A program made the translations under genes and the position numbers. A DNA stretch of 64,000 nucleotides from Deuterostichococcus epilithicus (Eukaryota; Chlorophyta; Trebouxiophyceae; Prasiolales; Stichococcaceae). The notes under the pieces were generated by a model, which saw only the letters and a list, made by a program, of their open reading frames with translations, made no database searches and had not been told where the DNA came from. Positions 6,525 through 31,833 of the stretch are shown one piece after another (positions within the stretch are counted from its first letter, which is position 1; each line of letters starts with the position of its first letter). Location of the stretch: assembly GCA_033439295.1 (NCBI GenBank), contig JAVTLE010000001.1, positions 1,612,001-1,676,000 of the forward strand, given 5' to 3'.

Positions 6525-9500
6525 ATGACGGGCGGCGGCAAAGAGGCGGCGTCACATGAGTACGACTTCAGCAACGAGCTGCTAGAGCTCACACCAGAGG
6601 AGAGGGTGCGCTGGCCCTGCTTCATACTGTCTGCTTAAAAAGTTCATGGCACCTACACCTGCGATCGCCGCCGTCAATTGAGTCGGCTGGACGCACTGAG
6701 TTGCAGCTTCCTGTGGGGGATCATCACTGTGTTCGACTCACAAGAAGGCATGCTTACGTTTCAACCTATCTGCAAACTCTTTGAGGTTGAGAGTGTTCGG
6801 TGGGGAATGCGCTCTCCGGGAGGTGAACCCTGCCCACCAGGTCCGGACATATATATTTGATGCCCAACATTCCAGCAGCCAATCGATATCTTAGCATGAG
6901 CTCATTGACGTTATTTCAGGCGATGCTGGACCAGTTTTCGGTGGAAGATGCGCGCTTCCGAGAGCTGGACCGGGCGCTGGGCGACGCGGTGCAGCTCATG
7001 CGCGTGTCTGACGCCCGCGTTCGTAATTTACGCAAGATGCACGCCATGGTCCTCCTGCAGCAGTGCGCCACCGCTGCCGAGCTCGCGACTTTCCCCTTCT
7101 GTCTGCACCACACTGCACCGATTCTGCCGTTCCAGCTGCAGGGTTTTGCGCACATACTGGGCAGTTGTCGAAGCACGCCGCAGGCATGCTGGCTGTCTGC
7201 GGCATCGTACAGGAGCCAGCATGACATGACGTGCGTTCAACGGCTGAGTCCACGCACTCCCTGACTTGGCTGGGTGCCATGAAGCCGGCAGTCGAATTGC
7301 TTGCGGCATGGGTTCAAAGATGAAAAGACGGTGGCCATCTTGTCTGCAGGGTCAAGCAGGCGCTTGACGGCTACCACCGGCACGGCGGCGATGGCAACGC
7401 CGTGGCATGGCCGCATGTGCGTGGACCGCTCTCAATGCAGTCCGAATGAGGCCGTGTGTCAAGGGGCAGACCACGCCGTGTTGCAATCCATTCATCAGCC
7501 ACGCTCTTCCAGCCAGCTGTGTACTGGATGAGTGTGTGGCAGTATCCAAGCCAAAGCGCACAACACATCACCGCTCAGAAGCCCAAAACCACTATTCAAA
7601 CCTTGCTGCAGGCCCGCATGGGACTAGACTACGCATCCTGCTCGTCGTCGGATGACGAGGACGAGGAGGTGAGCACAGATGTGAAACGAGAGATGTTGGT
7701 TGCCCGAACCAGCTTGAAAGTGACAAAAAGGCCTTTACCGCACGCCCTGGGTCTCATTGTGCGACAGTCTGAACTTCAGGCGCACCTGCAGTCACTCTGA
7801 GGCATCCTGTCAACCGCATGAGCGCTTGCACTGACAGGTGCAGCTACTCGGCCACAAGGGGTGGCTCCGAGGCAGCGGCAGGGTAGGCCACGGGTCGGAC
7901 TCCGATGGCATGCGCAGCACCTCCACCATCAAGGCGCAGTCGACAGGCTTTGTGTACAAGGACGGAGTTCTTGACGCTGAGGTGAGCGTGCGACGCGTGA
8001 GGATCGTGCACAGCTCGGCGGATCTTAGCAGCGCCTGGTTTTGAGCGGATTAACATCCTGCTATGAGAGTCCAATCAACTTCTGCTCTTACACACCTACA
8101 CCAGGATGTTGCAATGCTCTTGTTTAATCCCATTGCCCGAACCTCTGACGCAACACTGACGTGCTGCTCCGCCGCCGCAGGAGGAGGAAGCAGACCCATG
8201 GGGCACAGTGTACGCTGCAGATCCCTTCTGGAATGACAGCGCCGTGCTGCCATGGCGGGACGCCAACAGAGGCGAGCCGGAGACGGCGGCGGCGGCAGGC
8301 GGCAATGCCGACAACAGCGTGGAACCGGCGGATGCGGAAGGCGGCTGCAATGACGCCACAGGTGCGCCGGCTCGCCGTTGATCAGTCCCACAACTGCAAC
8401 ATGCGACCACAGCACGGCTGATCAGCGGTGCCCACATACAGTGGTTGTTGGTGAACTCGCAAGGCAGTTGGCAAGTAGGTTGCCAAGCATTCTGTCCTTC
8501 AGTTGCAAGGTCAGATGCACGACATGTTATGTGGTGAATTCGCAAGGCAGTTGGCAAGTAGGTCGCCAAGCATTCTGTCCTTCAGATGCAAGGTCAGATG
8601 CATGACACGTTATCGGCGCATCGGAGTGGGTCAGTGGGAAACTTGTACAGGGGCCTACCGCCAGCATCCTTACTTGTTGGCCCACCTGGACTGGACGCTG
8701 CGCATCTGATGTGGCGGTGCTGCACCATGCGCATGGACAGCTGCTGCTTCAAGGACACCGAAATCACGGTTTGCGGTCCTGCAGGCGCAGAAGCTGCCAC
8801 CGGCGTGCCGCCGGAGGCCGACGAGTTCAGCCCGGAGCGCTTTGCTCGGCGCTACACCCGGCGCACGCGGCTCAATTGGGCGGGCGCCAGTGTGTTCTGC
8901 TGCTGGGCGGTTTGCTGCGCAGCCTACCTGGTGCTGCGCGTCACCAAAACCCTGCATGGGCTGGGCGGCTACCTGCCTTACGGCGTCTTTGTGCTGGGCG
9001 TTGAGATCCTGGGCGCCACCGCGACTGCCATCTACGGTGACTCAAAACCCTGAACCCTGTTTTTGGGTATGATACATTTCTCTGCTGCTTCAATTGCTGA
9101 GCATGGAGGTCTTGGTCGCCATCGCTGCCGCCATCTGCGGCGCTCGAAATGCTGGAGTCGCCTCTGATGAAACATGCATATCCATGGCGGGCCGCAAACC
9201 GTTCTGCTGGCATTTGCTGTGTCAGCAGCTGAGCCAGCAGTGCAATGCAAAACATGTGAGCCCTGGGAATTGCCGATGCATCGGAGAGTGAGGAGCGCGG
9301 CATAAACTGGGTTCGACTGTGCGCGGGCGCGGCCCAGATTGGGTTCAACTTCCCAAGCAGAACACTTGCAGCGCCGCCATGCTCTCAGGCACATCTGCAA
9401 AAACCTACAGACCAGTGACAGTAGCCGCATCCGGTGCTCACAGGCCTGAACCTCATCTGGACGCCAATCAACCCGGAGTTGGAACGCGGCGGCAGGCGGC

Positions 9501-12500
9501 CGAAGTGCGATGCGGACACCGCCTCGTCAGTACAGGCCGATTCGATCCGCGAATCCGTCTCTGCCAGCGTCAGCGACAGCGGCGGGGACGTTGAGGAGGG
9601 GCGCCTGCCGAATCGGCTGGGACTCCCTACCAAAACAGCTGCCGACATTGAAGAGGCGAGTCCAGTTCGATCCTCCTGTGGAAGGTCAGTGCTCATCAAG
9701 TCTTGCTGGCTTTTAACCTGGCGACATGTCTGGAACCTGTCAGAGACATGCTCCTCCCACAGCGTCCTCCTCCAGAAAATACCATGAACACTGCCTGCGC
9801 ACTCGGCATCTCCGGCTGCAGGTATGGTGTTGTGAAGGGCTCGAGCGCCTGACCCAGACCATCTTTCTGGTTCACTGGGCCTCAAACTCAGTCGAGGCCC
9901 TGCAATGACGCCTTGGTGCCGTGACCCTTCTTCCCCCTGTCGTTCGTCCACAGGAGGCGACCTACGCCCCGCTGACGGGAGCATACCACATCCGGGTGCT
10001 CATCCCCTGCTACAAGGAGCCGGCGGACATTGTGCGCAAGACGGTGGATGCGATCCGCGCCGCCGTGCTGCCTGAAGGTGCTGCTTCCATTGCTGGACAC
10101 CTGATACCTCTGCAGAGGTTGTGAGGTCATAAGCATCTTGCTGCGCTGTGCTCTGCATGGGCTCACGGCGTGGTTGCGTGATGGGATGGCATCAAACGTA
10201 CCCTCTGGGCGCACGGTCATGTGCAGAACACGGAGAGGCGGCAGCATGTGGCAATAGAACGCAATTCACGCCGCAGGCTGCCACCGCACCATCTACCTGT
10301 GCGACGACGGCGCCAACAGCCGGGAGGGCTGGCAGGAGGCCAAGGAGAAGCGGCGCATGTGCCTGCGCATGGGGCGCGGCGTGCGGTACGTCGCCGGCCG
10401 CGAACGGCGGCCGTGCGAGATGAACGGCAAGTCGGGAAACCTCAACAACGCCTGCCGCCAGATCTACCCCGACAGCTGCGAAATTCCTGGCGGCGAGGTC
10501 ATCTGCGTCATGGACGCCGACCAGGTACGGCACTTGATCGGGTGTGCTGGACCCTTGAGGGTCTCCAAACACTCTGCAGTCCACCCAGTGGCGGCGCTGC
10601 ATGATATTCGGCAGGGGAATGGCTGCCTACCCTGTGGTAGGTTGCATATCCAGTGCCCGCTGCCTGGCAGGCTCTTACGCATTCATGCCCTGTTGTGTGG
10701 GTGCAGTTGCTGCCGGTAGCTGGTCCACTGGCACTGCGCCGGGAAGGAGGCTGCCTCATAGTAAGCTGCCTGTCTTGATTCGGAAACCGACTCACCGATT
10801 CCCTGAGCAGGTGGCCAACCCCGACTTCTTCCTGCGGCTCATCCCCATGCTCGACGGCGGCGATGATGTGGCCATGGTGCTCAGCCCGCAGTGCTTCAGC
10901 AACCTCAACCAGGACGGCGACATCTTCAACCACTCCAACATCCACTTCTGGGAGTGAGACAGCCAACACACCTGGTTCATGCCACATTGTGTTTGTGCAC
11001 AAGCGCCAAAGAGCAGTGATGCCTGCTGCTGTTGGTCAAATTTGATGCAACTTCTTGGGACATATTAGTATTGTTGATGTGGCAGCCGATCAGGGTTCGA
11101 TGGTCCCTTATGCAGCATTTGATCTCCACTTGTAGGTACATGCAGCCAGGTGCGTGGTGATGTGTCTATTATTGCAGCGTCTGCACTGCATCTGACAAGT
11201 GCTTTGTGAAACCCCTCTACATTCCGACAGCCCTTGCGGATGCGCTGTAAAATCTTTGGGACCCTGCTCTGTTGCGCAGGCTACGACGCCCTCGGCTTCA
11301 TCTCCTGCACAGGTGCCCTTGCCCTTGCGCCTAATCTCTACAAAGGCTGCTGCATTCCTTGATTTGCTTTGTCCGGCTCAGCCGCTGTGCCGCTGGGCAC
11401 CATTGTGTCGCCTAACTCGACTTCAGAAGAGCGAATCGACTTGACATGAACTCAGCACATGCAGCTGACAGTTTCCTTTGTCCACCCTCATCCTCACCCG
11501 GCCTCCGGATATCAATGCGGCGCAGGCACCAACTTCCTGATCCGCAGCAAAGCGTTTCAAGAATGTGGCTGGTCGCCAGAGTACACGCTGACAGAGGACT
11601 TCGCGCTCGGCATGGAGCTGAAAATGCGTCACTGGCAGGTGCCGCTTTACTGCTGCTGTTGGTCATGCACTGTTAAATCACTGCCGCAACATGCCCGCCG
11701 AGCCCTTTGTGTGTGCAAGCAAAGGCTCATCTCGGGTGAATGACACGAATCCGTGTGTTGCAGTGCCGCTACGTGTGCGAGTACTTGGCCATTGGCGACG
11801 CACCAGATCAAATCCGAAACTGCTTCCAGCAGCGCTCCCGCTGGTGCAAGGTGAGCGACACTGTGAGATGCGAACCGCTTCGAAACAGCTGTAGCATAAT
11901 GGCTGCGGCCGCACTGTGCGGAGCCCAACGTTGGCGGACGCATCATGTAAAATTGAGCAAGGAATGCAACCACATCGTATGCATCCGATGCAGGGGCACT
12001 TCCAGGTCGTGTTCTCAAGGGAGCACTGCCCGCTGCTGAAACCGAAGCTGTCCATCTTCATGCGGGTATGCTGTTCCTGCTCGCGCGCATGATCTCTGTC
12101 GTCGCACCACACGAGCCATGGGGTATAAATGCTTCTTTAACATGCGATGGCTGCGATGCCAGCCGATGTAGACGAGCACAGAATGAAAGCCGCCGCAGTC
12201 GGCCGCCGAGGCATCTTGTGTCATGTGCAAAGTGTAAAGTTGTCCATGAAGGCCCTTGCCGCGCCCTGTCCGGCCCGCAGATCCTGTTCTGCTCGGGCGT
12301 GTGGTCGTACATCGTGGCGTCGGTGGCGACGCCCACCTTCATCCTCGTGCCGGTGCTGACCATCTGGTTCGGCGTCTTTCCCATCGTGCTGTCGTTCTGG
12401 GCCGCCCTGGGCCTCAGCGTCTACTACGCCGCTTCCACCTCGGTGCGGCACCCTTTTGGATGGAGATGTGATGCGGAGTATACTCGTCTGATCAGGCCGC

Positions 12501-15500
12501 AGCTGTGCATGCCGCCGCAAGCAGCGCGCCGGCAAAGGTCCTGTCCTGCATGGCTTGCTGCGGCCAGTCAGAGGCACCCTGACATCTGGACGAAACATAC
12601 ATACAGCTCTGCATCTCGACACTGTAGGTACCATTGAGGCCCTTCTGTTCACAAATGAGGGGCAGCGTGCCGACATTGTGCAGGTGCTGATGTATGCGCG
12701 GGATCGCAAACACCTCAAGCCGCTGTGGTTCTCCAACATCTGCACCTTCATCATGTTCTGGACATACATCAAGGCGCTGTTCCGGACGCAGCTCGCCAAG
12801 ATCTTCGGCACAGGCATCAGCTTCAAGACCACGCTCAAGGTGAGGCGGTGCCGCGGCGGACATGGATACTGAGCGCCTGCAGCCGGCATTTCACATGTAA
12901 TGCAGCACCAGCTCAAAGGCAGTTGCGTCAGATGCGGTCCGACAGCACTGAAGGCTTGCCGCCCTCGGACCCCGCCCCCAGACGCCGCCCTCCTACCAAC
13001 AGTTCAGCAACATGTACATGCACACATGTCAAATATGCTTTGCAGCACATGCAGACGATCTGACTTCTATCTTGACCGCGGTTGAATCGCAGGGTGCCGG
13101 ACGGCTGAAGGCTGATGCCGTCATGGACCTTGCGGTGCCGGTCGGCCTTTTCGTTCTGTGCGCCGTCTCCTTCGGCATCGGCGTCAGGAAAGTCGCTGAC
13201 GGCGCCTCCGGGGTGAGGTCCTGTTCCTCGTAGTCGTGCTGATGCATGATTGCCAGCAGTCTCCGTCGCTTTCCTGGCCCAAAGCACCCTCGTGCCTTCC
13301 TGCCCATGTATCAGCTGGCACTGAGATGCCGGCCTCAGCGTCACCAGCCCCGAAATGACGCTGCGGCGGCCTGCACGCAGGCCAAGACCACGCTGCTGGT
13401 GTCGCTAGCGTGGATGGTCTTCAACATGATCCCCGGCTATCTGCTGCTGCACTACGCCCTCGGCGGCAGGGGCACCACCCTCAAGTTCGCTTGCAGGCGC
13501 GCCTGTCAGCTGTGATGAGCTGCATATGCGGAGAGTGATAATCAGGAGGAAAACCTGCCAAACACCGTCGTGCTCGTTCCACCAGCATTCTGCACACGCT
13601 GCGGCACTGCGGTATCAGTGTCCTGTGACTCGTAGCAGCAATGTCGAATGCTTGGCGACTCTTGCAACTCGCGGCTGCGCATCCACTGCTGCTTGGGAAT
13701 TGCGCAGGATGTGCAGGGATTCGAGGTACTTCCGTGCATGACATGTATGCTTACGGTCTGCAGGATCGCCTTCTGCGTGTCCGTCCTCGTCAATCTGGCG
13801 GCGCTAGCCTTCATCTGGATGCTGTACCCGCGGCCGATGGATTATGCCGGCGCCACACGCGCCGCACTGACCTACCTCCAGGCGCGCTCGTTGCCTCGCT
13901 TGCAGGGACGTATTGTCTCTGGAAGTCCCTTTGTGGCAGTGTCCAGCAGGATTCCCCCTTGAGATATCTCCCGGGAGCCTGTCCCGCGGCACGGCGGCGA
14001 CCATTTACCTGGCGCCGGCATGTGCGGAGGATGCTGCTGACGTCCGCAAGGTGGTGGTGACTCCCGGAGTGGCTCTTCGACGACCGCAGAGCATGATGCT
14101 GGAGCCGCTGCCGGGCGTCGGCTTTGGGGTGCCCTGGCGCGCGCCGGCCTACGCACAGGACGCCTCCAGCCCGCTGGTGGCGCCAACGTCCGCGGTGCTG
14201 AGCAGCAGCCACGACTCCGCCGGGGGGTGGATGACCGGCGGCGCAGGCGGTGCGGACCTTCCACTTTGTTGTGGGTGCAGCGCTGCTCCGAGTAGCTGCA
14301 AATTGAACTCTGTGAGCGCGCCAGGGTTCATCTTCTGGATGAAACTGCTGATGGCGCCGGCGCGGCAGGTAGCCTCAACGGCATGCTGGTGTGGGAATCC
14401 GACCTGCGCCATCGGAGGCTGCAATCAGGGATTGGCAAGCATTATCTTGAAGCCAAACGGTCAGGGTCTTTCGGACACACCATCTTGCGCCTCCCGCAAG
14501 CAGGTAGCATCAAGATGACGCAGCCAGCCGCCTTCACGACCGCCCTGCTGGCCTGGAGCCTGCTGTCGTTCCCATGCGGCTTCAACCCTGCCACCAGGGC
14601 GGCGATGCTGCAGCAGATCCAGGTGCCGCGAAATCCTCCACACCTGCTGTCATGCGCATGAGACATCGCTGCCTTCGCCCATTGGGCTCGCAACTCACAG
14701 ACGTGCCCAAGGGCCGTTGCGCTGCTGGTCAGCCTGCTCATGGCGCAGCATCGTCGGCGTGCTTGCACTGACCAACAGTCATGTCCCTCGCGTGTCCTGC
14801 TGAATGTGCAGGTGGGCGCAAACTACCTGAAGAAGACGCTGATGTCTCTTACGCCAGGAAACCCCGACTTCTTCGTGATCCATCAGGTATAAATGGACAA
14901 CACTTGACGCTAGTGTCCGCTGCAGTGGCTGCGGCAATGCAGCGCTACCAGATCGTCATGCCGAACAGAAGGCTGTTCTGAGACGGATTGCCCACCAGCG
15001 CAGTGTGCAGGCAATTGCCAGTGCGAGCTTGCAGCCTTTTTGTCTTTTCCTGGACAGGTGGGCAACGTCAGCACCGAGAGCCGGTACTGGGGCTACCCGG
15101 AGGCCTTTTCCGGGCCGCGGCCGTCATACTTCGTCAACACCTCCAGCGGAGCTTCCGACCTGACGGGCTCCATGGCGGCCGCCTTCGCCGCCTCGCACCT
15201 GGCCTTTCGCACAGCCGACCCGCCATACGCTCAAGTATGTCGCATTGTCAAGCCTGCTCTGTGCGCAGCCGCCCTCCTCACCTCCCCGAGCTGATGTTCC
15301 ATGGTGTGCGTGTATAACTGTCACCTGACCCTTCTGCTCGGAGGGGTTGCATCTCAGATGACACCATCAGACCTTGATGCCGCAGCGTCCTGCAACACCC
15401 GCCACTGCTTGGCGCTGTGTAGGGAGTGTGGGCACCTGCTGCATGTCGAGTCGGTGCAGTCGCGGGGTGGCACACATGACGTCCTTGACTGATGCTGGGA

Positions 15501-18015
15501 ACCTGCAGGAAATGCTAGGCTTGGCGGTGGACATGTATGGAGCAGCAAAGAGGTATCCTGGCTGGTGAGCGCCAGTCATTGGCAGGGGCACTTGTTGCTT
15601 CACCTTGAAGTCCTCCTGGAAGGTCGAAAATCCTTGCCTGGCGGCAGCCTGTCAGCACCCCGAGCACTTCGGCATGATTCAGTGCTGCACAGCAAACGCT
15701 TTCAGCCCAGCGCTGCACAGCAAATGTTTCCAGCCCAGGGCAGGCTTCACCCGTCCGTCTGTTATGCGATTCCTGCAGCTACACAAACGGCATAAAGGGG
15801 ACCATGTGCTACACGCACTACCAGCGTGCCAACCTCAACACGCTGGACCCGTACGGCGAGCTCGCAGTGGCGCGCCAGGACGTCTGCCAGGGCCCGGCTG
15901 ATGCCTTCAACGGCTCCGTCGTCGCGTGGTGCGCTCCCGGCCGCCCTGCCGCTGTGCAGCCACAGATGCTGAGAGGTGCAGGCTTACAAATCCCGCACAG
16001 CTGCCCTCGAACACCACAAGTAGCCTCAAGTACGTAAGCAATCCATGTAGGTGGACACGGCGCAGTCGTCTCCACTGCGGATTGCGCGCACCGCCGCAAT
16101 TTGAAGGTCACATATCTGGCCAGAGTCGCGATGCGTTCTGCCGCCGTGGTCCGGCAGGTACAACAGCACCACATACTACGACGACATGATGTGGGCGGCC
16201 ACCTGGATGTACGAGGCGACGCAGCAGCGGCAGTACCTCAACGACTCCATCAATTTCTACATCAAACACACCCAGGTCGGCGCAGCCACCATTTCCCCCT
16301 TCCAGCCGTGGCACGCAGTCGCACGGGTGCCGGTGCAAAGCGGCAGCAGCACCAAGTCATTCACTAGCGGCCGACCAGTGTCTTCTCTCTGTTGCCTGAC
16401 GGCTGTCCCTCAAGAGTCACCAAAGCTGGCGGCCCACTTCAGCTCGCACATTTGCCCCTCGGTGTTCCTCGCATCAGCATTCGGGCATGCGCTATCGCTG
16501 CAGGGGCCAGAGAGCCACTACGTCGACAAGCTGGTCTTCAATTGGCAGAACACCTTCTGGGGCGCCAACCTCAAGCTGGCGCAGCTGCAGGTGGGCTGTG
16601 GCACGCTCTGAGCAGCTCATTCGACCTGTGGGGACCAGAACCGACCTGTGGGAAGCCAGAACCGGGCGGCCAGATCCCATGCAGTGTGCGACATTGATGT
16701 CGCTTGGAGGAATGGCTCGTAGGTGCTGCTCACAGGGGCAGCATGTGTTGACCCTCATGAGCGCCGCACAGCAGTGCATCATGCACCAGCTCGAGATGCC
16801 AAGCGGCAACATGTCTTCTGAACCCTTGACTCTTGGTATCATGCGTGCGGCCGCAGGGCGACCCTGCGTACCACCGGCAGATGCAGTATTTCCTCAAGTT
16901 CTGGCTGTGCGGCACTGACGGCAACCCCATCATGTTCACGCCCCTCGGCCGCGCATGGAACGCCAACGATGGAGTGCTGGGCACCACCGCCAACGCCGCC
17001 TTCTTGTCTGCCGTGTACGCGCAGGCCACAGCGTGAGCCGCTTCTGCCCGATGCTGCCCCAGATCATCTGGCTCGTGGCGCATCCTCATTTGTAAAATGT
17101 CGTGGTATGGCAGATCAATATCCAGGGTGACCTGTGGTTTCCGACACAGCGCAATTCTATCCACTCTCGCATCCATGAACACAGACGCACGTACGCGGCC
17201 AAGGCCAAGCGGTACGTGTGCTTCGCGCGGGCACAGACGCGATTCATCCTTGGCGCCTCATCGGCATCATACCTAGTGGGCTTCGGCAGCAAGTACAGCA
17301 GAGTCCCGCAGGTCATGGGCGCCTCCTGCCCCGGCACGCCCGTCCCTGGCAGGCGGCAGGTGCGCGGGGCTTCTTTTCGAGGACTTCAGAGGGAGCATCT
17401 TCTACACATTGCGCACCCTCTGATGCGCCATGTCCCGAGAGCTGGGCGTGTCAGCTGTTTGGTTCGCAGCGATTTCCACCAGTGTCTCGCCTTTTCAGCC
17501 ATGCAGCACTGGCACTCGCACTCAGCACATTGCATCTCTTTCACGCTCGCTGACTGTGCAATTGCGGCTGCACGGCGCAGCCCTGCGGCAGGGCGCAGGC
17601 CCTGTCACCGCTGCCCAACCCACATGTGGCGACCGGCGCGCTGCTCGAACAGTCTGACTTCACGGACGATATCTCGGCCGTGCGCGGCTCCAACAACAGC
17701 CGCACCGCCGTCGAGTACAACGCCGGGCTGATAGGTGCACGCTCTGCCCACGCCAGGCACCATGCAGCATGCCATCGAACATCACTCTTCTTCGTACAGC
17801 TGAGCAACGGACGATGCGGTGTGCTTCAGAGGCTGCGATTATGATGTTGCGATGTATCTCTCGTCTCTGTTGGAAGCTGCTTTCAGTCTGGGCTGCTGAT
17901 ATTATCCGCAGGCGCGCTGGCAGGGGTGCAGCAGGCGCCAGGCGAGTGGAACGAATGCCTGCAGGGAAACGGCGTGCTGTCCCGCGACCACACCATCTGC
18001 CTAGCAGTGACTTGA
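6525..18015 (+). CDS. CslG-A: cellulose-synthase-like GT2 fused to a degenerate GH9 domain
   Basis: Membrane-embedded processive beta-glycan synthase, probably using UDP-sugar at the cytosolic face and extruding the chain. Main exons: 6525-6605, 6920-7062, (7345 region uncertain), to 7668, 7838-7981, 8181-8361, 8785-9036, 9444-9655, 9954-10077, 10277-10524, 10811-10953, 11136-11149, 11280-11312, 11526-11638, 11764-11850, 11994-12065, 12281-12442, 12684-12839, 13093-13212, 13381-13496, 13764-13881, 14090-14249, 14504-14622, 14812-14886, 15058-15234, 15509-15564, 15779-15928, 16158-16275, 16504-16590, 16857-17032, 17185-17359, about 17579-17734, 17912-18015. GT2 motifs: LIPCYKEP, LCDDG, MDADQ (DxD), TEDFALGMEL, QQRSRW (QxxRW) and a gating-loop-like FKTTLKG. 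Two helices precede and about five follow the catalytic core. The C-terminal ~500 residues match the GH9 fold but lack its catalytic residues (separate entry). Product (cellulose or another beta-glucan) cannot be told. Three introns begin with GC. The start ATG is provisional. Confidence 0.85.
8447..8612. repeat. Tandem duplication, unit about 83 bp, in a CslG-A intron
   Basis: Two adjacent near-identical units (about 8447-8529 and 8530-8612) share gaattcgcaaggcagttggc-like and ccaagcattctgtccttcag blocks with only a few differences. The repeat lies in the intron between exons 8181-8361 and 8785-9036. The low divergence suggests a recent event. Confidence 0.85.
11136..11149 (+). other. 14-nt micro-exon in CslG-A
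   Basis: Codes for the junction residues Y-M-Q-P plus two split codons between the HFWE exon and the YDALGF exon. It is flanked by tag at its 5' side and gtgcgt at its 3' side. In CslG-B the same residues lie inside one 47-nt exon (24267-24313), so CslG-A has one extra intron here. Confidence 0.8.
14090..18015 (+). other. GH9-like pseudo-cellulase domain of CslG-A
   Basis: Exons from 14090 onward encode a glycoside hydrolase family 9 fold. Recognisable blocks: PWRAPAYAQD, GGWMTGGAGG, MAAAFAASHLAF, YYDDMMWAATWMY, FNWQNTFWGANLKLAQL, TTANAAFLSAVY, YLVGFGSKY, MGASCP, NPHVATGALLEQ and VEYNAGLIGALAGV. Where active GH9 enzymes have the Asp pair in the DAGD motif after GGW, this protein has MTGGA. 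Where they have P-H-x-R before GASCP, it has PQVM. Where the catalytic Glu lies six residues before the Asn of YNAG, it has Arg. Hydrolysis is therefore unlikely. Because it follows the last membrane helix, the domain should sit outside the cell, near the glycan exit. No ATG, signal peptide or promoter-like gap separates it from the GT2 part. Confidence 0.8.
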
Positions 18016-18684
18016 AACATGGGACTGGAAGCGGCTACCCAGGCACTGGTCTGCATGGTGCCGTCCGCATGGGAGCAAGGGGCGGCTGCCAGCTGCTGGA
18101 GGCACATCGAACTTCGGGGTCGAAACTGCAGTCGATCCACACTTTCGAATTGCAAAGAGGATTTGCGACAGGTGACTGGAATTCACCGACTCACGACTTG
18201 CACCTGCTGTGTGCCGCCGCGCGCTGATACAGCATTTTGGGAGTCTTCGAGCCTAATGTGAGTAGGTGTTCAGCTGGAAATGCAAGGGCAATCTGCTTCT
18301 AGGTTGCAGGCTGCTCACCAAGCCGGCCGCGCTGTTTCGGGGCGCGCCCATAAGTTCCTCTAAGGGGCCAGACCTAAGACTAAATAGCAGACTAGCATCC
18401 CGCAGATTGCAAGGGGAATAACGCGATGCATCTGAAGCAGGGGGATTACAAGGGCCTAGGACAACAGCTGGCCGAGCGGGAGCGGGCGCTTCACCTGTTT
18501 CGTGCGGCGCGGGAGGCGTGCGATGCTTGACTGAGACCGTCAGATTAGCCAGCAGCAACCTCCACTGTCAAGCACGCACGCGGCGTGCTGCACCAGGATT
18601 TCTTCTAGGTCGTTGTGCAGCAGGCCAGCCGAGAGCCGGAGGACCGCATAGGAGTTTTGGGCCCGGCGTCCGCGCCGCGGCGCC
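18016..18684. other. Intergenic region between the tandem synthase genes
   Basis: About 0.67 kb between the CslG-A stop and the first ATG of CslG-B. No coding signal was recognised. It must contain the 3' end of CslG-A and the promoter of CslG-B unless the two are co-transcribed. No clear TATA box was identified. Confidence 0.5.
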
Positions 18685-21600: not shown

Positions 21601-24600
21601 CCCAGATCGGTTTCCAAGCACCCTTACATGCAAGCCAGACGGACGCGCCGGCATTGAGGGCGGCTGCAGCCTGGCTGCAAAGCAGGAAAACGCCTTGCGG
21701 GAGGCTGGTTCCCGGTGATTGTGCCTGACATACCTTTGGCCGCTGCTCTGGAGACCAAACCTGCTGCCGACAGCTCCAGCACTGGACATCAAAGTTGAAC
21801 TCAGGATTACCGTGCTGCAGGCAGCACCATCGAAAAGGATGGCGAGGGTGACGGCAAGCTGGACAAGAAGGAGGCCAAACGGATCGAAGATGCGGCCTAT
21901 GACCCGTCCCGCTTCGCCCGGCGCTACAAGCAGCAGCGCCGCATCAACTGGGTCGGCTCCACAGTCTTCTTCCTGTGGATCTGCGCCTTCCTGGCCTACA
22001 TGTTCATCCGCGTCACCAAGACGCTGCAGCTGGGGAGCTACCTGGTGTACGGCATCTTCGTGCTGGGCGTGGAGGTCCTTGGCGCGTCCACCACCCTCAT
22101 CTATGGTGCGCGGCATCGCCCACACAAATGCAGCCTGCAGCTGTGTGCGAGCTCTGGCGTCGGACAGCGCCCATGAGGCGCAAGTAAACGAGTCTGGGAT
22201 GTGAGCAGCACGTGAGCAGGCGCTGTCTCCTGAATGCACATGCCTGTGCGTCCACACCTCTTACACAACCCTGCACTGGCGTGGAACACACAGCCTTAGG
22301 TGGCGCGATGGGCTCCCGACGCAGGCACCAACCTGATCTTCACGCCAGTCAACCCGGAGCTGGACCGCCTCAAAAGGAAGGAGCCAGTGGCCGCCAAGCC
22401 GGCGGCGAAGACGGGCGGCTGGTTCCGGCGCAAGGGCAAGAAGGGCGGCAAGGACGAGCCGGAGCTGCCAGTGTCGACAGACGGTCCGTCCGTGAAGAGC
22501 GGCGCGGGTTCCGAGGCCGGCGACCTGGAGGAGGGCGGCCTGCCCAAGGTGAGGCTGGGAATCAGGATTGAAAACTAGTATCGGGAATCAGGATCGGAGC
22601 TCTACTCCGATCCGGCATCTGGAGGTTCGGAACCTGAGCGGGACGGGAGGGGCTACCCTGGCCGGGGACCTGGAGAGGCAGCTTCCCAAGATCAGCTGAG
22701 GAGTTGTCGAGCATGCCAACCACGACATCTGCGAACCTGAGATTGGCCGGCGGCGGTCTCGCTGGCCGGCGTCCCGCAGGAGGGCGACCTGAAATGAGGC
22801 TGGGAGCCAGGTGTTTAGGGTGTAAGGTTTGGGTAGCCGCAGCTGGGACGACTGGTGGAGGTCGGACAGTGCGGGCGCTTGGCAGGGCCCTGGAACGTGA
22901 TGGCCGTCAGCATATGTACAGCGACGTCGATTGCCAAACCCAGTGGGGCATGCTCATGCTCCAATGCGTCCGACACGCTGGGCTACCTTGAGGATGTGGG
23001 GTGGCACCTCCAAGGGGCCTTCGCAGCTGCGCTTGAAGAAAGGCTCAGCACCGCAAGCTCAGAACAGGTTGGGGGCGGCGTGTCACGAACAAGGCGTGGT
23101 CCTATGTCTGAGCACCTCTACATCTGAAATCCTTGCAGGACCCGGACTACGAGGAGCCACCGCCGACGGGGCACTACCACATCCGTGTGCTCATTCCCTG
23201 CTACAAGGAGCCCGAGGAGATCGTGCGCCAGACCGTGGCCGCCATCCGCACCGCCGTGCTGCCGCCCGGTGAGTGACAGGAGACCTGCCGCTGTGTCGAG
23301 CATGCCCACCGCCGCCGCTGGAGCTCGTTGCCGCTGGCACCGTCCCTGGATGGTCGCCTTGCGCGACGTGCCCAGCCCCGAAGCTTGCTGCCATGCTGTG
23401 CTCCTGGAATTTGTCTCTGCAGGAGCGCCAGAGGCGGTCGGTGCAGGTGCAGCCAGACTCGCCATGCCCACACCACACAGACGCTGATGTGCAGACGCGG
23501 ATCCCCTGACGCTGCTCCGCTTTTCCGCAGGCTGCCACCGCACCATCTACGTGTGCGACGACGGCAAGGACAAGCTCAAGCGGCGCATGTGCCAGCGCAT
23601 GGGGCGGGACGTGCAGTATGTGTCGGGGCGCAACCGGCCTTCGGGCGAGATGAACGGCAAGTCCGGCAACCTGAACAACGCGTGCCAGCAGATCTACCCT
23701 GCCGGCTGCAAGATCCCGGACAACGAGCTCATCTGCGTCATGGACGCTGACCAGGTGGGCTGGCGGAGCTGGTTTCCCTTGCTCAGAGGCGACTGTGCCT
23801 ACTCAGCAGTGCATCTCCCAGAGCAGCCAGCCGAGGCTGCACGCTGCTGGCAAGCCACAGTCAATCTGCAGTCGCACTGCAGCACTTGCACGCGAAACAG
23901 TGCCCGACGCCAGGAACGGTTTGCATACAACACGCTGCCTGGCTGACTCTGGCGATAGTTCACACCGTGGCAACGCCTCGCTGCCGCAGATTGCGGACCC
24001 CACCTTCTTCATCAAAATGCTGCCGATGGTGGATGGCGGCGACGACGTGGGCATGGTGCTCAGCCCGCAGTGCTTCCACAACCTCAACCAGGAGGGCGAC
24101 ATCTTCAACCACTCCAACATCCACTTCTGGGAGTGAGTCCTGAATCTCGGGATTCAGACTTGCGCAACATGAACAACACTTGCCGTCTGTACTCGTGCAC
24201 ACTGATTTCAGTCTCACATTGTGTTCAATGGTTCCTGAGTCGTTCACACTTACTTCCTGCTTCCAGGTACATGCAGCCGGGCTACGACGCGCTCGGCTTC
24301 ATCTCCTGCACAGGTATACTGATGCGGGCGTGCAAGCACAACCTGCTGCCACCTGCTGCAAGCCGAGATCAAGTGCAGCCCCCCCGCGACCTTGTGTGCA
24401 CTGCGGCGTACTGGTGCCTCTGCGCGCAATCCTACGCACGGTCCGAGCAGGATGTGCATTGCCACTGCGCAGGCACCAACTTCCTGGTGCGTTCCAAGGC
24501 GTTCCAGGAGTGTGGCTGGTCGCCAGAGTACACGTTGACAGAGGACTTCGCCCTCGGCATGGAGCTCGTCAAGCGCAAGTGGCAGGTGCGGGCTGCTTGG

Positions 24601-27600
24601 AACGGGCCTTGAGGATGCGCTTGGAAGGCTCTCTCCGAAATACTTCGCCGCCGTGCTGTCAGGCAGCTTGCTGCACTGTGCTCAATGTGCAAGTCGCGTC
24701 TTGACACACCACGACCTCGGGAGCCTGATTTGGAAATACTCATTGACTGCCTGCGCCTGAACCTTGTTCAAGAGCGCAGGGAGGACATGGCCAAACCTAC
24801 CCTTCATGCTTGTTGCAGTGCCGCTACGTGTGCGAGTACCTAGCGGTGGGCGAGGCGCCCGACCAGGTCCGTAACTGCTTCCAGCAGCGCTCCCGCTGGT
24901 GCAAGGTGAGCCTCGGTGCCTCCCCTCCTGGCGTGCCGCTGTCCGCCCTGGCATGCTGCTGAGCTTCGACCTTCCTGCCGCCGCTGCTGGTAGAACCTCT
25001 GGAGAGCTGCTGGGTGTGGCGGCTGCAGAAGTCCCGGCTAAAAGTACTGCGTTGTCATACCGTCCGGTGGTGCTTCCAGTGGGAACTGCGGGGCTGCCGC
25101 AACATCGCGCCGCCCTGCATACTTGCTTGGGCCTACGGATTGCTCGACACAGCGGCGCAGCCTGGGTGCAGCACCCAGGCTGCGCCGCTGTGGCGACACA
25201 GTTGTTGTCCAAGCACCCAGAGCAGGCCGGCGTGCAGCAGCAGCAGCCCCGTCACTGCAATCAGCCGCACCGCCGACGGGCATGGCTGTGCAGCGATTCG
25301 AGCCAGGTCCATCGCAGCCGCTGGACACAGCAGCTTCTTCAGCGCTGTGCTGCTGAATTGAGACAACACGAAAGATGTCTGCAGACATGCGTGCTGATAT
25401 CCGCATCTGATATCTTCTGCTGCAGGGCCACTTCCAGGTCATGTTCTCCAAGCAGCATTGCCCGCTGCTGCAGAAGCGGCTGTCCTTCTTCATGAAGGTG
25501 CGCCCAAATTTGTGTGTTCTATATGTATGTGCCTCCCAGCAGCAGTTGCTTCCTGGAGTACTTGTTTGCCGCTCGCATTCCCACAGCATCCGGCCTGTTA
25601 CCACCTGATGCCAGCTGGCTGCTCTGCGCCTTTCGTTACCCTGCCGCTACAAAGTTTCAACAATTGATTGGCATGTGACGCCAGTGCTGCATCGCTCGCA
25701 GATCCTGTTCTGCTCGGGAGTGTGGTCGTACATCGTGGCCTCCATTGCGACGCCCACCTTTATCCTGGTGCCGCTGCTGACCATCTGGTTCGGCATCTTC
25801 CCCATCGTGCTCTCCTGGTGGGCCGCCCTGGGCCTCAGCGTCTACTACGTCGCCACCACTGCGGTGCGCATAGCAGTCTTTCCACCAAAGCCGCCTTGCT
25901 CTGCAGGTCACTCGCAGCCAGTCTCCTCTGCAGCCTTCAATACTGTTGTTTCAGTGCTGTTGACATTAAGGGAAGACAGCCATTGCCCGCGCTCCCCTGC
26001 CTGATTGCGTACGCACAGGACCTCCTGCATGCCTTTGACCTGACTGCCGCCAATTTGTGCTTTCTTCTGCCCCAGGTGCTGAACTACTCCAAGACGCGCA
26101 AACACATCCAGCCGCTGTGGTTCTCCAATGTGTCCACCGTCATCATGTTCTGGACGTACATCAAGGCGCTGTTCCGATCGCTGTTCGCCCGATTTACAGG
26201 CGGTCTCAAGTTCAAGACCACGCTCAAGGTATGTTCATCACCATTTGGTATCTTCCGGGCATGTGCCTCTGTAGTGGGCATGTGTTTCCATCAGTGCGAT
26301 GGTGCTTCTCTGCTGTCCAGGACCCTTGTAGCTGTATCATAGAGCAGCACCTTGGAGGAGACAGCAGACAATGCGCATGCCCAAGAGAACGGTGGACAGG
26401 ACGAATCGTGGTCATTCTCAACAGCATGCGCAACTGCTCAGAACACCCTTCTTGCCGTGCAGGGTCTGGGCAAGCTGCAGGACAGCGCCTTTGGTGATCT
26501 CATCGTGCCGGTCATCGTGCTCATCCTGTGCACTGTGTCCCTGGGCATCGGTATTGGCAAGGTCGTCAACAATGCGTCTGGGGTGCGCTCCTTTCCTCGA
26601 ACTTGCTAGAAGATCACATATGAGAATGCGGCCTGTTGACCGTTTTCTATGCAGCAGCCTGCTCCGCACTCTCCCGACCAGCTCGAAACGCCTGTACAGC
26701 TGCAAGTTTCACTGTCATCCTAGGCCCTGCAGCGGCGATGTTCGCCTGCAAGCGCTACATGCACCCCTCACGGTGTTCAATTTTCTTGTTCCGAAACTGT
26801 AAATCCGTCCCTGCAGGCCAAGACGACGCTGCTGGTGTCGCTGGCTTGGATGGTCTTCAACATGATCCCGCCCTACCTGCTGCTGCACTACCAGTTCATC
26901 GGGCGGGGCACAACGCTGAAGATTGTCTGCAAGTGCGTCTCCCTGACCCGCACAGATAGGCCCTCCTCGCAATGCTTTGGTCTCAGACTCATGCGACCGT
27001 GTCAGGCCGCGCTGCACCAGCGACCCTAGGGCACTGGAAGCCTGCCTTGTGGCAGTACACACCCCCTACCCACTGCTGAGGCCTGTGCCATCCAGGTTTA
27101 GGGTTTTCCATTTAGGGTTTAGAGTTTAGGGTTTAGGGTTCAATTCCATATGTAAAGTCACCTTCTGTTTTGGCGCCCGCAGGCTGGCGTTCTACCTGTC
27201 CTTCTTCGTGGGAGTCGCAGCGCTGGTGCTCATCTGGCTGCTGTACCCCAAGGGCTTTGACTACCCGGGCGCCATCGCAGACAACATCACCTACTTCCAG
27301 GTGCGCCTCTGGGACTTCTTGACATTTCATGGATTTGCGATATGAGCTACACACTCGAACTGGCCCTTGCTTTTCTGCTTCTCGAGCCTCGTCAAGCGTC
27401 GGCCACGCAGGCCTGCAGGCGCCTGCCTGCGGCTCTCGTTTGCTGGCAGTTGCAGTGGGCTGGGGGACTGGGCAACTGCCCCTGGAGTCCCTGCAGCGGC
27501 CCTGGCTGTGACATGGCCCATTTGACCTTGCTCATGCAACTGCCTTGCGCACAAGCGATAGGGACGCTGCTGACGGCCGTCACTGTCGCCGCCCCGCGCA

Positions 27601-30600
27601 GAGCACGATGGTGGGCACGCTGCCAACAAATGGGTACAACGTGCCCTGGCGGGGCGTCGCGTATGCACAGGACGCGCGCAGCCCCATCGTCGCGCCGCTG
27701 ACGGCGACGCTGGGCGCTGTGCACGACTCCTCCGGCGGCTGGATGACCGGTGGCGCCGGCGGTGAGCCGCCTTTTCATGACCTGCCCCTCCGCAACCTTC
27801 CCCTGTCCACCCCTGTGCAATGCTGTGCACTCCTGTCTGCCTCTGTGCAACCTGTGTCCGTCCCTGGGGCTGCACGGCATTGGCTGGAGCCCTGCCGGGC
27901 GGGAGCTGTGACTGAGACTGCACACGTATGGCCGCACAGGCAACATCAAGATGACGCAGCCGATCGCATTCTCAACGGCAATGCTGGCCTGGAGCGTGCT
28001 GTCCTTTCCCAAGGGCCTGGGCGGCAGCAAGACGGCGACGCTGCAGCAGGTCCAGGTGCGGACGTGTCTCACTTCCTTGGTGCCTGCCGATTCAGCTGAG
28101 GCGCTTCCACCTGTACCTTCCACCTGTGCACATCTCTGCGTCCCACACTCACTGGGCAGCGTCGGCTTTGTGCAACTCGAAGCAAGCCAGCTGCTGAGCC
28201 CCGGAGATGACACGGACGCAGATCGGGGCGGAGTATCTGAAGAAGACGCTGCTGGAGTACACCGCCAACAACCCCCAGTTCTATGTCATCTACCAGGTGC
28301 AGTCTTAGGGTTCTAGGGTTCCAACCTAAACCCGCAAGGCCCATTCCCTCGGCTGCCCACCCTCTGCCCTCGCCTCCTGAGTGCTGGACCTGCACTGCCA
28401 GCACAGCCTGCAACCGGCAGCGCTGTTCTCGATGGCGGGAGGCTGCTGGCTGCGCCACCGCACCGGGGCAGCGCCCGCGCTCGCAGGCATGGCAAGGCGT
28501 GCACCTGGCTGTCTCTGTCCTTTTTGCTTACATGTTCCAAACATGACACTCACTCACTCCTTCATGTTGCGCCAGGTGGGCAACCTGAGCACAGAGAGCC
28601 GGTATTGGGGCTACCCGGAGGCGTTCACAGGGACCCGCCCGTCCTACTACGTGCCCACCTCCATCGGCACCTCCGACCTGACAGGCTCCATGGCCGCCGC
28701 CTTTGCCGCCTCCTCCCTGGCCTTCCAGACCGTCGACCGCGCCTACGCGCAGGTGTGCGATTTCTTGACTGCGTCTGCCGCTTCGGTTCCGGGGGTGCAC
28801 AGCAAGCCTGCGCAAGCACCCCTCCCAATATGGGCAGACGCTGCTGCGCGCTGGCTGGAAGCCTCAACGGGAAAGGCGACAGCAGGGGCCTGCGCATGAC
28901 ACTGTGATGCACCAGGAACGAAGACGTCAGCGGCGCTGCCGTCCTTGCATGTGTGTGGCGGCTGCTTATTCTGACGACCAGCGGCGTGCTGCGCGCAGGG
29001 CCTGCTGAACCTGGCAGCCAACATGTATGCGGCAGCAAAGGCCTACCCTGGCTCGTGAGTCCCTGCCCTTGCCTTTTGCTTGCACCGCTCATGTGTTGTG
29101 CACAGTGTCACATCTGCAACCGCAAGTGCACACCATGCTTGCCCGCTTTGCTGGCGGCCGGTCGTGCAGACGCTGTCCCCGTGCACATCAACCGGTCTGC
29201 TAGCGCGGCCGACAATTCTCCCCCAGACCCACCAGTGGCGCACACCTGACACGCCTTCCTCCCTCGCAACGTGACGCTGCCGCATGACGATACCCAAAAC
29301 CCTCTCAAACCTTACCGCAGGTACTCCTCCCGCATCCGCGGCAGCGTGTGCACGTCGCAGTTCGAGCGGTCCAGCATCGGGCCGACGGGCGCGGTGCTGG
29401 CCACCTCCGGCGTGTGCAAGGGCCCCTATGACGCCTTCAACGGCTCCGCCCTGGCCTGGTGCGCCGTGTCGTGCCCTGGGCAAACTTTTGGGGTTTTGTG
29501 GATGGACACGCGGGCGGCCTGCCTGCGTACATTGGGCCGCGCGGCATGCCAGCAGACGCTCAGCAGCGTGCGGTCCGTGCTTGAACATGGAGGGGCGCAA
29601 GCCAGGTGTCTACATTCCAGTTCCCGCCCCTCAGCCGCAATTCATCACGTTTTACAAGTTTTGAGACGCCCCTCTTACCCCAAACAGGTACAACAGCACC
29701 TCTTACTATGACGACATGACGTGGGCGGCCAGCTGGATGTACCAGGCCACCGGGCAGGCGACGTACCTCAACGACGCCATCACGTTCTATGTCCTGCACT
29801 CCCAGGTGCGTATGCGGCTTGACACCAAGTATTGTCGGCTGCCGTCGCGCTGACGCGTGCCACTGGCGGCGGCAGTGGCAGACGGTGCTGAGTGTCACCT
29901 TGGAGGGAACCTGCGAGCCCGGCCCAGTGCGGGGGCCCGGGGGAGGGGTGTCGACATGGTCCCGGTGCTGTGCTGACAGCAAGAGCATGCCAGAGACGTG
30001 CATTCAGTCGTCTGCGGCACCGACTGCAGGCAGCCTGACGCTGTGGTGAACATGTGCGCGCAGGGCCCCGAGCAGGTGTACGACGACGAGCTGTTGTTCA
30101 ATTGGCAGAACGTGTTCTGGGGCGCCAACCTCAAGCTGGCGCAGCTCAAGGTGCGCATCTGACATCTGGGCAGCAAGTGCAGCTGAAAGCAACCAGCAAC
30201 CTCCAAACACACAGGATGCGCGAAAGGGCCAAATGACTCTTTTGCAATGCGCCTCTGCTGCTCGGCACCCCTGCTCGTGATTGCCTGCCCTGCTTCGGAG
30301 CCCCCGCGTGCCCGACCGCACAGCCCAGCGCCCACTCTTCCGGGTTCGGTCACCGCAGGGCGACCCGGCGTACCACCGCCAGATGCAGTACTTCCTCAAG
30401 TTCTGGCTGTGCGGCACCGGCGGCGTCCCCGTGCAGTTCACCCCCCTGGGCCGTGCCTGGAACGCCAACGATGGCGCCCTGGGCACCACCGCCAATGCCG
30501 CCTTCATCGCCACGCTGTACGCCCAGGTCGCCAGGTGCGCGCCTTGAGGCCGTGCCAGCCCATCGATGCTGAAAAACAGCAGCACGCGAGCTGAGGAATG

Positions 30601-31833
30601 CTGCTCGTGATGAAGTGCCGGCAGCCGCGTGCACGGGATACAGCCGCGAAGCATCGCACCTCGTCACCCCGGCCTCGAATGGCAGGGGAGCTGCCATCGG
30701 GCTGCATGCGGCGTGGGCTCTGGCGGGCAGTGACCACCCTGCGCATCAGAACACCGAGCACCCTCGGCCCTGTGCCGACAGCCTGCGTCCGGAAACTGCC
30801 CGGGGACTGACCTCCCACACACGCAAGCCGCCCGGGACTCAGCTCGCCCACCCTCGTGCTGCAGGAAAAAGTACGCGGCCAAGGCCAGCCGGTATGTGTG
30901 CTTCGCGCGGGCGCAGACGCGCTACATGCTGGGCGACTCGTCGACGTCCTTCCTGGTCGGCTTCGGCAAAAAGTACAGCAAGTTTGCGCAGGTCATGGGC
31001 GCCTCCTGCCCCGGCTTCCCGGTGCAGGGCAAGGCACAGGTGACTGCCCGCTCCAATCTCGCTGCCCTGCCTCGCTCGACGTCGCCCATTCCCGTGCCTT
31101 GCTGTCCACCTCCGACTGACTGGCTGTGGGGAAGTGCTCTAGCTAGCTAGCTAGCTAGCTAGCTAAACGCTCCAGAACCGGCATCCTTGCCATCCCCCTG
31201 TGCTGCTGAACATGCCCAGCCCGCCTGCCTCGCTGTGCGGTCCTTCGCGCCCGCGCGCTGCTTCTGCATGGCTGTGCCTGAAGGAATGGCGCCAGTCCTG
31301 CCCACACACCGCCCGATTGCACCCGCAGAACTGCACGGCAGCGCAGCTGGTGAGCAAGAAGCCCAACCCGCACGTCGCGGTCGGCGCGCTGCTGGAGCAG
31401 TCCAGCTTCTCGGACGAGGTGTCGGTCGTGCGCGCCTCCAACAACAGCCGCACCGCCCCCGAGTACAATGCTGGCCTCATGGGTGCGCTCCTTTCAAGGC
31501 CTGCACCATACCTTGAAGGCGTGTCGCGCACGGTTTGCGCCACTGCCGCTGCATACATCGTTTCGGCATATCGTTCGGCAAAGGCCGCTCCTACTGCTGG
31601 TCGATCAGTCGTGTCACTATATACCTGACCTCCAGTTCTGTTAAAGGCTGGGCTTCAGTTGCCTGCATGCCCTCTTTCGACAGCTCTCGTCCAAAAGCTG
31701 ACTGCCATTTTCATTCTCGGCTGCTGCAGGTGCGCTGGCGGGCGTGCAGGAGGCGCCCGGCAACTGGAACGAGTGCCTGCAGGGCAATGGTATCCTGTCG
31801 CGGGATACCACTATCTGCCAGGCGACCGTCTGA
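18685..31833 (+). CDS. CslG-B: cellulose-synthase-like GT2 fused to a degenerate GH9 domain
   Basis: Tandem paralogue of CslG-A, about 1440 residues in roughly 33 exons with matching intron positions. Exons: 18685-18755, 19285-19363, 19881-20023, one near 20160-20281, 20571-20684, 20966-21112, 21423-21558, 21821-22105, 22325-22548, 23139-23268, 23531-23754, 23990-24132, 24267-24313, 24473-24585, 24819-24905, 25426-25497, 25702-25863, 26076-26228, 26463-26582, 26817-26932, 27183-27300, 27602-27761, 27940-28055, 28222-28296, 28576-28752, 28999-29054, 29321-29458, 29688-29805, 30064-30150, 30359-30534, 30865-31039, 31329-31482, 31730-31833. The first ~280 residues are acidic and probably cytosolic. 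GT2 motifs: LIPCYKEP, VCDDGKD, MDADQ, TEDFALGMEL, QQRSRW and gating-like FKTTLKG. Two helices precede and about five follow the core, predicting an outside C-terminus, which carries the GH9-like domain. A Lys/Arg-rich loop (WFRRKGKKGGK) follows the second helix. The start ATG is well placed with in-phase downstream exons. Confidence 0.9.
22549..22810 (+). repeat. Degenerate copies of an exon 3' edge plus donor in a CslG-B intron
   Basis: The exon ending at 22548 finishes with GDLEEGGLPK and donor gtgaggctgggaatcagg. Related fragments recur downstream at about 22660-22700 (gacctggagaggcagcttcccaag) and 22777-22805 (gagggcgacctgaaatgagg). The phrase gggaatcagga is also repeated near 22557 and 22583. 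They look like successive decayed tandem duplications of the exon edge. Confidence 0.6.
24995..25345. repeat. Long inverted repeat with perfect 22-bp central stem
   Basis: Positions 25148-25169 and 25171-25192 are perfect reverse complements separated by one base. Outward from the centre the arms remain alignable but diverged for roughly 150-170 bases each: both read, away from the centre, as AGRR..AAAP..APP.GM-like peptides and share gcagccgc...cagcagct blocks. The element lies in the intron between CslG-B exons 24819-24905 and 25426-25497. Transcribed, it would fold into a long hairpin. It could be a decayed foldback element or a small-RNA precursor. Confidence 0.75.
27095..27142. repeat. 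Interstitial telomere-like TTTAGGG repeats
   Basis: Several tttaggg units, some perfect and adjacent (tttagggtttagggttc), lie in the intron just upstream of CslG-B exon 27183-27300. Shorter relatives occur at about 28306 (cttagggttctagggttcc) and 44318 (gtttagggttttaggggttc). The unit matches the plant and Chlorella-type telomere rather than the Chlamydomonas TTTTAGGG type. Confidence 0.7.
27602..31833 (+). other. GH9-like pseudo-cellulase domain of CslG-B
   Basis: Same architecture as in CslG-A. Blocks: PWRGVAYAQD, GGWMTGGAGG, IAFSTAMLAWSVLSF, WGYPEAF, MAAAFAASSLAF, YYDDMTWAASWMYQATG, FNWQNVFWGANLKLAQL, TTANAAFIATLY, MGASCP, NPHVAVGALLEQ and PEYNAGLMGALAGV. The Asp pair (DAGD) is replaced by MTGGA, the P-H-x-R motif by AQVM and the catalytic Glu by Arg (SRTAPEYNAG). 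The substitutions match CslG-A almost exactly, so they predate the duplication and have been kept. The C-terminal tail (Trp-Asn-Glu-Cys, QGNGILSRD) is conserved in both copies. Confidence 0.8.
31141..31164. repeat. (AGCT)6 microsatellite
   Basis: Six uninterrupted AGCT units in the CslG-B intron between exons 30865-31039 and 31329-31482. The unit is self-complementary, so this is also a perfect palindrome. Confidence 0.95.

Follow-up and report, generated by a model that had tools for sequence, protein, structure and literature searches.

Tandem genes of the green alga Deuterostichococcus epilithicus join a cellulose-synthase-type GT2 half to a GH9-fold domain that has lost its catalytic set

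We analysed a window of 64,000 nucleotides from the green alga Deuterostichococcus epilithicus (assembly GCA_033439295.1, contig JAVTLE010000001.1, positions 1,612,001 to 1,676,000 of the forward strand), which carries two tandem genes, here copy 1 and copy 2. As read from the genomic sequence, each gene encodes a single polypeptide, in which a GT2 half of the BcsA/CesA type is followed by a GH9-fold domain with its catalytic set lost. We think it probable, with some reserve, that the protein is a synthase whose disabled but selected GH9 domain handles the emerging chain without cutting it. The genes and the introns at the domain junction, in positions of the window, are as follows.

6525..18015, forward strand: copy 1 gene, GT2-GH9 fusion; coding sequence modelled from the exon of the first transmembrane segment (TM1) at 8826 to the stop codon at 18013-18015, with the N-terminal exons (6525-8825) partly modelled
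19316..31833, forward strand: copy 2 gene, GT2-GH9 fusion; coding sequence modelled from the TM1 exon at 21898 to the stop codon at 31831-31833
19316-19363, 19884-20024, 20975-21112 and 21417-21566, forward strand: N-terminal blocks of copy 2 that match relatives; unspliced, start codon unfixed
13882..14089, forward strand: copy 1 GT2-to-GH9 junction intron, phase 0, GC-AG
27301..27601, forward strand: copy 2 GT2-to-GH9 junction intron, phase 0, GT-AG

The two copies were compared in translation, and the exon joints were picked jointly in both (paralog-guided splicing). Equal intron phase was a condition imposed in this search, so the shared phases are not independent evidence. The copy 1 model has 27 exons (8826-18015) and 1162 amino acids counted from the TM1 exon, the copy 2 model has 26 exons (21898-31833) and 1150 amino acids counted likewise, and both frames are free of stop codons. 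Introns are GT-AG in 24/26 cases in copy 1, with GC donors at 13497 and 13882, and in 25/25 cases in copy 2. Both GC-AG introns read CAG/GCGCGC, and their copy 2 counterparts are GT-AG. The N-terminal part is encoded by upstream exons and is present also in the relatives P0001-P0003 (P numbers denote proteins found in our searches). In particular, the reading from an upstream ATG of copy 1 at 6525, MTGGGKEAASHEYDFSNELLELTPEERV, is similar to the N-terminal end of P0003. Copy 1 also has a block common to relatives (6923-7075), and the matching blocks of copy 2 lie at 19316-19363 and 19884-20024.

An earlier note on this DNA, made from the sequence alone, had claimed that the GT2 frame continues in phase into the GH9 part. 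In accordance, the spliced models read through in frame in both copies, and both junction introns lie between the exon pairs that the note had named. The copies are 69% identical in the GT2 half and in the GH9 half alike, and the ratio of nonsynonymous to synonymous substitution rates (dN/dS) between them is 0.38 (GT2) and 0.37 (GH9), indicating that the fusion is not a chance one. Such equal constraint on the two halves rules out both a chance arrangement and a decaying pseudogene.

The GT2 half comprises the following features.

9954..13881, forward strand: copy 1 GT2 catalytic core and C-terminal transmembrane region, from motif positions and Pfam
Copy 1 GT2 motifs, forward strand: CDDG 10300-10311; DAD within 10510-10524; TED within 11591-11605; QQRSRW 11827-11844; FKTTLKG 12822-13095 (intron-split)
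23139..27300, forward strand: copy 2 GT2 catalytic core and C-terminal transmembrane region, from motif positions and Pfam
Copy 2 GT2 motifs, forward strand: CDDG 23554-23565; DAD within 23740-23754; TED within 24538-24552; QQRSRW 24882-24899; FKTTLKG 26211-26465 (intron-split)

Each of the five motifs occurs once per copy; the complete set that had been read from the sequence (DD, DxD, TED, QxxRW and a gating-like loop) is therefore present. Pfam finds GT2 families in both copies, and the half contains seven hydrophobic segments. It aligns with BcsA, the PDB sequences that it matches are all bacterial cellulose synthases (6/6), and the predicted fold of a homolog is a BcsA/CesA fold with transmembrane channel helices. 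No PilZ domain was found in the Pfam search of the window proteins. By its sequence and the predicted fold of the homolog, the GT2 half is a processive synthase of the BcsA/CesA type, and we infer that its product would be beta-1,4-glucan.

The GH9 half comprises the following features.

14090..18015, forward strand: copy 1 GH9-fold domain, catalytic set lost, from alignment and Pfam
Copy 1 GH9 motifs, forward strand: GGWMTGGAGG 14222-14505 (split); PQVMGASCP 17306-17332; NNSRTAVEYNAG 17692-17727
27602..31833, forward strand: copy 2 GH9-fold domain, catalytic set lost, from alignment and Pfam
Copy 2 GH9 motifs, forward strand: GGWMTGGAGG 27734-27941 (split); AQVMGASCP 30986-31012; NNSRTAPEYNAG 31440-31475

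Pfam assigns this part to GH9 with E 1.1e-66 in copy 1 (profile positions 1-444) and 7e-70 in copy 2 (two stretches), and finds no GH6 in either copy at E 0.01 or better. All matched structures are chains named endoglucanase, glucanase or cellulase (18/18), and the predicted fold is the GH9 barrel. Catalytic sites were compared with those of 20 GH9 sequences, 17 bacterial and 3 animal, in the numbering of T. fusca Cel9A, whose catalytic sites we take to be Asp55/Asp58, His376/Arg378 and Glu424. In both copies, Asp55 is replaced by T, Asp58 by G, His376 by Q, Arg378 by M, and Glu424 by R, so that neither has the residues of an active GH9 enzyme. These are the substitutions noted earlier, and the preserved fold claimed with them is upheld by prediction. 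An intact Asp or Glu aligned elsewhere, which the earlier note had named as contrary to its claim, is seen in neither window copy. With the two Asp, His376 and Glu424 all missing from the alignment, the domain is, on that comparison, unable to use the GH9 mechanism. At other positions, the window copies retain Trp128, Tyr206 and Asp214 and have lost Trp313, Arg317 and His125. Because the predicted fold is kept and the constraint equals that on the GT2 half, the dead domain probably serves at the synthase exit as a module that lies outside the cell and does not cut, which agrees with its earlier placement outside the membrane.

The loss is family-wide. A protein search with copy 2 yielded 172 proteins, the best 120 of which were listed, and with the later searches the set analysed came to 160 proteins. 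Both GT2 and GH9 are present by our own profiles in 78 of the 160, five of them transcriptome open reading frames. The architecture, for which the earlier note had looked to other chlorophytes, is found among the matches listed in Myrmecia, Coccomyxa, Trebouxia, Elliptochloris, Symbiochloris, Botryococcus, Apatococcus, Auxenochlorella, Chlorella and Micractinium, ten genera that we take to be trebouxiophytes, and in Chlamydomonas eustigma and Chlamydomonas sp. UWO 241. A search using the GH9 part alone gave five matches. At least one catalytic Asp is missing in 67/78 two-domain proteins (the dead set). Both Asp are retained in 10/78 (the intact set), which also retain Glu (5/5) and His and Arg (4/4) where these are covered; in the remaining protein, P0135, the Asp sites are uncovered by the model, and it is close to the intact set. 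Among the 67 dead proteins, P0077 and P0080 retain Asp55, and P0090 and P0091 retain Asp58. Where covered, dead proteins keep His376 in 2/57, Glu424 in 0/57 and Arg378 in 43/57 cases, the last count indicating that the dead site is not wholly erased. Both kinds occur in Elliptochloris (P0132 intact; P0012 and P0017 dead) and in Symbiochloris (P0134 intact where covered; P0020 and P0023 dead; P0030 partial). P0132 is an annotated model of 1963 amino acids that also includes a kinesin domain, and its N-terminus is therefore suspect. UniRef clusters name many of the two-domain proteins cellulase, a database name that the dead-site finding would correct.

To order fusion and loss we used trees of the quick kind, both with long-branch warnings. 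The GH9 tree has 79 rows, with 15 of 80 bacterial loci used, and is without 20 of the 78 two-domain proteins (intact P0127 and P0133; P0007, P0021, P0026, P0030, P0034, P0043, P0047, P0048, P0049, P0051, P0052, P0055, P0056, P0071, P0079, P0093, P0094 and P0135); P0107, P0126 and P0129 were trimmed at a misread tail. The fused GH9 domains, 60 in number, group together in a single clade (support 99), a one-origin result limited to the bacterial and animal comparison because the tree holds no stand-alone plant or algal GH9. The clade is two-sided, with 8 intact domains (99) versus 52 dead ones (96). When the tree was rebuilt with the catalytic columns removed, P0124 dropped and T. fusca Cel9A added, the dead domains were again one side of a branch. 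A topology that joins intact fused and animal GH9 in one clade is rejected (p-AU, the P value of the approximately unbiased test, 0.008). Placement of four chlorophycean-type rows outside the dead side is not rejected (p-AU 0.217), so that there may have been two losses. The GT2 tree has 125 rows, 35 having been removed by hand and others for short matches, and holds 5 of the 10 intact fusions; P0113 and P0120 are labelled GH6 in it, and no GH6 is listed for either. All named green algal rows lie within one 104-row clade (100), in which the five included intact fusions and five GT2-only rows form one clade (100). GT2-only rows are interspersed among fused rows, and some may be truncated models. 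The split of the fused clade into intact and dead sides argues that an active GH9 was probably joined to the synthase first and lost its site afterwards, once or twice.

The genome (46.8 Mb, 21 contigs), whose introns and homologs point to a green alga and probably to a trebouxiophyte, holds six fusion genes, namely the two window copies and four further loci (on C10, C12, C11 and C5) with GT2 exons and then GH9 exons on the same strand. At none of the four was the full catalytic set seen, full models not having been built; the C10 and C12 loci have neither catalytic Asp. The C11 locus (L035 with L041, G000:C11:121500-134500) reads DFGDSFVKY, with both Asp of DFGD kept and no His or Glu, and the C5 locus (L036 with L042, G000:C5:2857000-2869500) reads DAGTSFVKH, with the first Asp and no His or Glu. 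These two divergent loci are possibly intermediates of decay. A canonical GH9 site was seen at none of the eight GH9 loci from the Pfam search of the genome, and a search for an intact fusion with P0134 (38/54 candidates scored) returned the known GT2/GH9 loci and a weak match on C18. Two GH9-only loci (L038, G000:C5:2648500-2654500; L039, G000:C14:2472500-2478500) read YYEAGG where GH9 has YDAGD, and retain a Glu in a YAE[PS]TT stretch close to the Glu site. Two GT2 relatives with no GH9 match nearby (L037, G000:C5:679500-686500; L040, G000:C6:39500-46000) resemble Coccomyxa 'Cellulose synthase 1' and others of its kind. Searches of the genome for GH8 and GH5 gave no candidates, with positive controls, although short exons could hide members.

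We propose that the seventh membrane helix of the processive synthase leads to the GH9-fold domain, which would lie, probably, outside the cell. In an ancestor of these green algae, an active GH9 would have been fused to the synthase. Of the two branches that followed, one would have kept the active site, and the other, as the trees suggest, would have lost it and kept the fold under selection. At the channel exit, the dead domain may use the remainder of its cleft to hold, guide or separate the chain as it emerges, and we infer that it binds or guides glucan in doing so.

Several observations weigh against this proposal. Trp313 and Arg317 are found in 0/52 and His125 in 2/52 of the dead set, and all three in 8/8 of the intact set, indicating that part of the cleft is gone and that glucan binding may be weak or absent. 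Pfam Cellulose_synt is below the cut-off in both copies. In copy 2 taken alone, sequons show no clear bias towards the GH9 part (5 in the 639-residue GT2 part and 5 in the 511-residue GH9 part; in copy 1, 1 in 646 and 6 in 516). The depleted cleft speaks for the main rival, in which the dead GH9 is a structural or assembly module for dimerisation, synthase packing, folding or trafficking and makes no contact with glucan. So do residues newly conserved in the dead set (Cys293 48/52, Cys344 51/52, Cys382 48/52, Arg307 48/52 and Arg351 47/52). However, Trp128 (51/52), Tyr206 (42/52) and Glu132 (47/52), presumably cleft-side residues of GH9, are retained, and Cys382 is found also in both animal GH9 enzymes of a further alignment; we regard such a module as unlikely, if the strongest competitor. 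A GT2 that makes another beta-glycan (mannan, mixed or chitin-like), with the GH9-like domain handling that polymer, is slightly less likely again. It would suit the sub-threshold Cellulose_synt match and a review that, in its excerpts, groups chlorophyte walls with glucan, mannan and chitin (PMC10762512), but not the structure matches of the GT2 half, nor the prediction of cellulose in Coccomyxa walls by Blanc et al. (PMC3446292), who in the excerpted text cite Calcofluor staining and cellulase protoplasting.

Two further explanations fare worse. Conserved acidic residues in the dead set (Asp214 52/52, Asp411 49/52) and the cellulase names in UniRef might point to a domain that still cuts or transfers glycans via other residues. 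However, Asp214 is invariant in active GH9 as well and is therefore no sign of a new catalyst, and Glu424 is absent throughout the covered dead proteins; we consider such activity improbable. That the fusion is a modelling artefact of two separate head-to-tail genes or transcripts is scarcely credible. The copy 1 junction needs a GC-AG intron and the fusion is read from genomic DNA, but both copies are in frame through the junction, copy 2 via a GT-AG intron, and the same exon order recurs at the four further loci. In-frame models together with the 78 two-domain proteins, transcriptome frames among them, rule out separate genes.

The need of cellulose synthesis for a cellulase, such as KORRIGAN or BcsZ, still lacks an explanation. 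A cellulase fold that was joined to a synthase, long disabled and still conserved argues that part of the role is non-hydrolytic. More broadly, we suggest tentatively that green algae have two related synthase-cellulase kinds, one with the full set and one disabled early, strongly selected and multiplied. In that case, cellulose synthesis would require its cellulase-fold partner for a non-cutting role, one that would have arisen at least twice (GH9 here, GH6 in tunicates), algae with both kinds would offer a natural comparison of cutting and not cutting, and the intact-site fusions would make the non-hydrolytic role testable.

KORRIGAN, or plant GH9A, is a membrane endoglucanase whose GH9 domain acts outside the membrane beside cellulose synthase. 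The window copies resemble it in having a GH9 domain, probably outside, next to a cellulose synthase, but KORRIGAN is a separate, active protein with an N-terminal transmembrane segment, whereas theirs is fused to GT2 and lacks the catalytic set. BcsZ (GH8) is the separate, active cellulase partner of bacterial BcsA. The GT2 part aligns with BcsA, and a cellulase belongs to the same pathway, but BcsZ is of another family, and Pfam lists no PilZ in the window proteins. In two bacterial proteins, P0156 (Anaeromyxobacter sp. Fw109-5) and P0159, a single chain carries GT2, PilZ and GH8 (PF01270), so that synthase and BcsZ-type hydrolase are united.

The earlier note knew of no description of the fusion, which does not hold: GT2-GH9 fusions have been known since 2012, when Blanc et al. 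reported four GH9 plus cellulose-synthase-like proteins in Coccomyxa and drew the tunicate parallel, stating that among algae they found the synthase domain only in Coccomyxa, C. variabilis and Emiliania (PMC3446292, excerpts). The proteins of Coccomyxa subellipsoidea C-169 are like the window copies in domains and lineage. P0014, a C. subellipsoidea protein of this kind, aligns with 99% of copy 2 at 46% identity, and its catalytic residues are missing at the same positions. The excerpted text calls the Coccomyxa GH9 part a glycosyl hydrolase and does not discuss its catalytic residues; the present genome differs from that description in its two tandem copies and six fusion genes. Family-wide catalytic loss and related fusions that keep the site seem to be new points. 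Excerpts of the literature covered, including PMC3446292, PMC10762512, PMC3797821 and PMC11839794, neither describe the fused GH9 as inactive nor mention an intact sister, although most subscription journals and supplements lie outside this scope and such a statement may still be in print. The closest parallel is tunicate CesA, and the likeness drawn in the earlier note is borne out: in excerpts of two papers (PMC10334666, PMC7464555), a cellulose synthase carries a C-terminal GH6 domain whose catalytic Asp was lost, a loss dated before the larvacean branch. Five metagenomic proteins (P0114-P0117 and P0119) have this tunicate-type combination of GT2 and GH6 (PF01341), and group with P0113, for which no GH6 is listed, in a single clade (99) next to that of the green algal GT2 rows. 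The algal and tunicate proteins thus share a cellulose synthase with a C-terminal cellulase-fold domain that has lost catalytic Asp, but the tunicate domain is GH6 instead of GH9, in an animal gene of separate horizontal origin.

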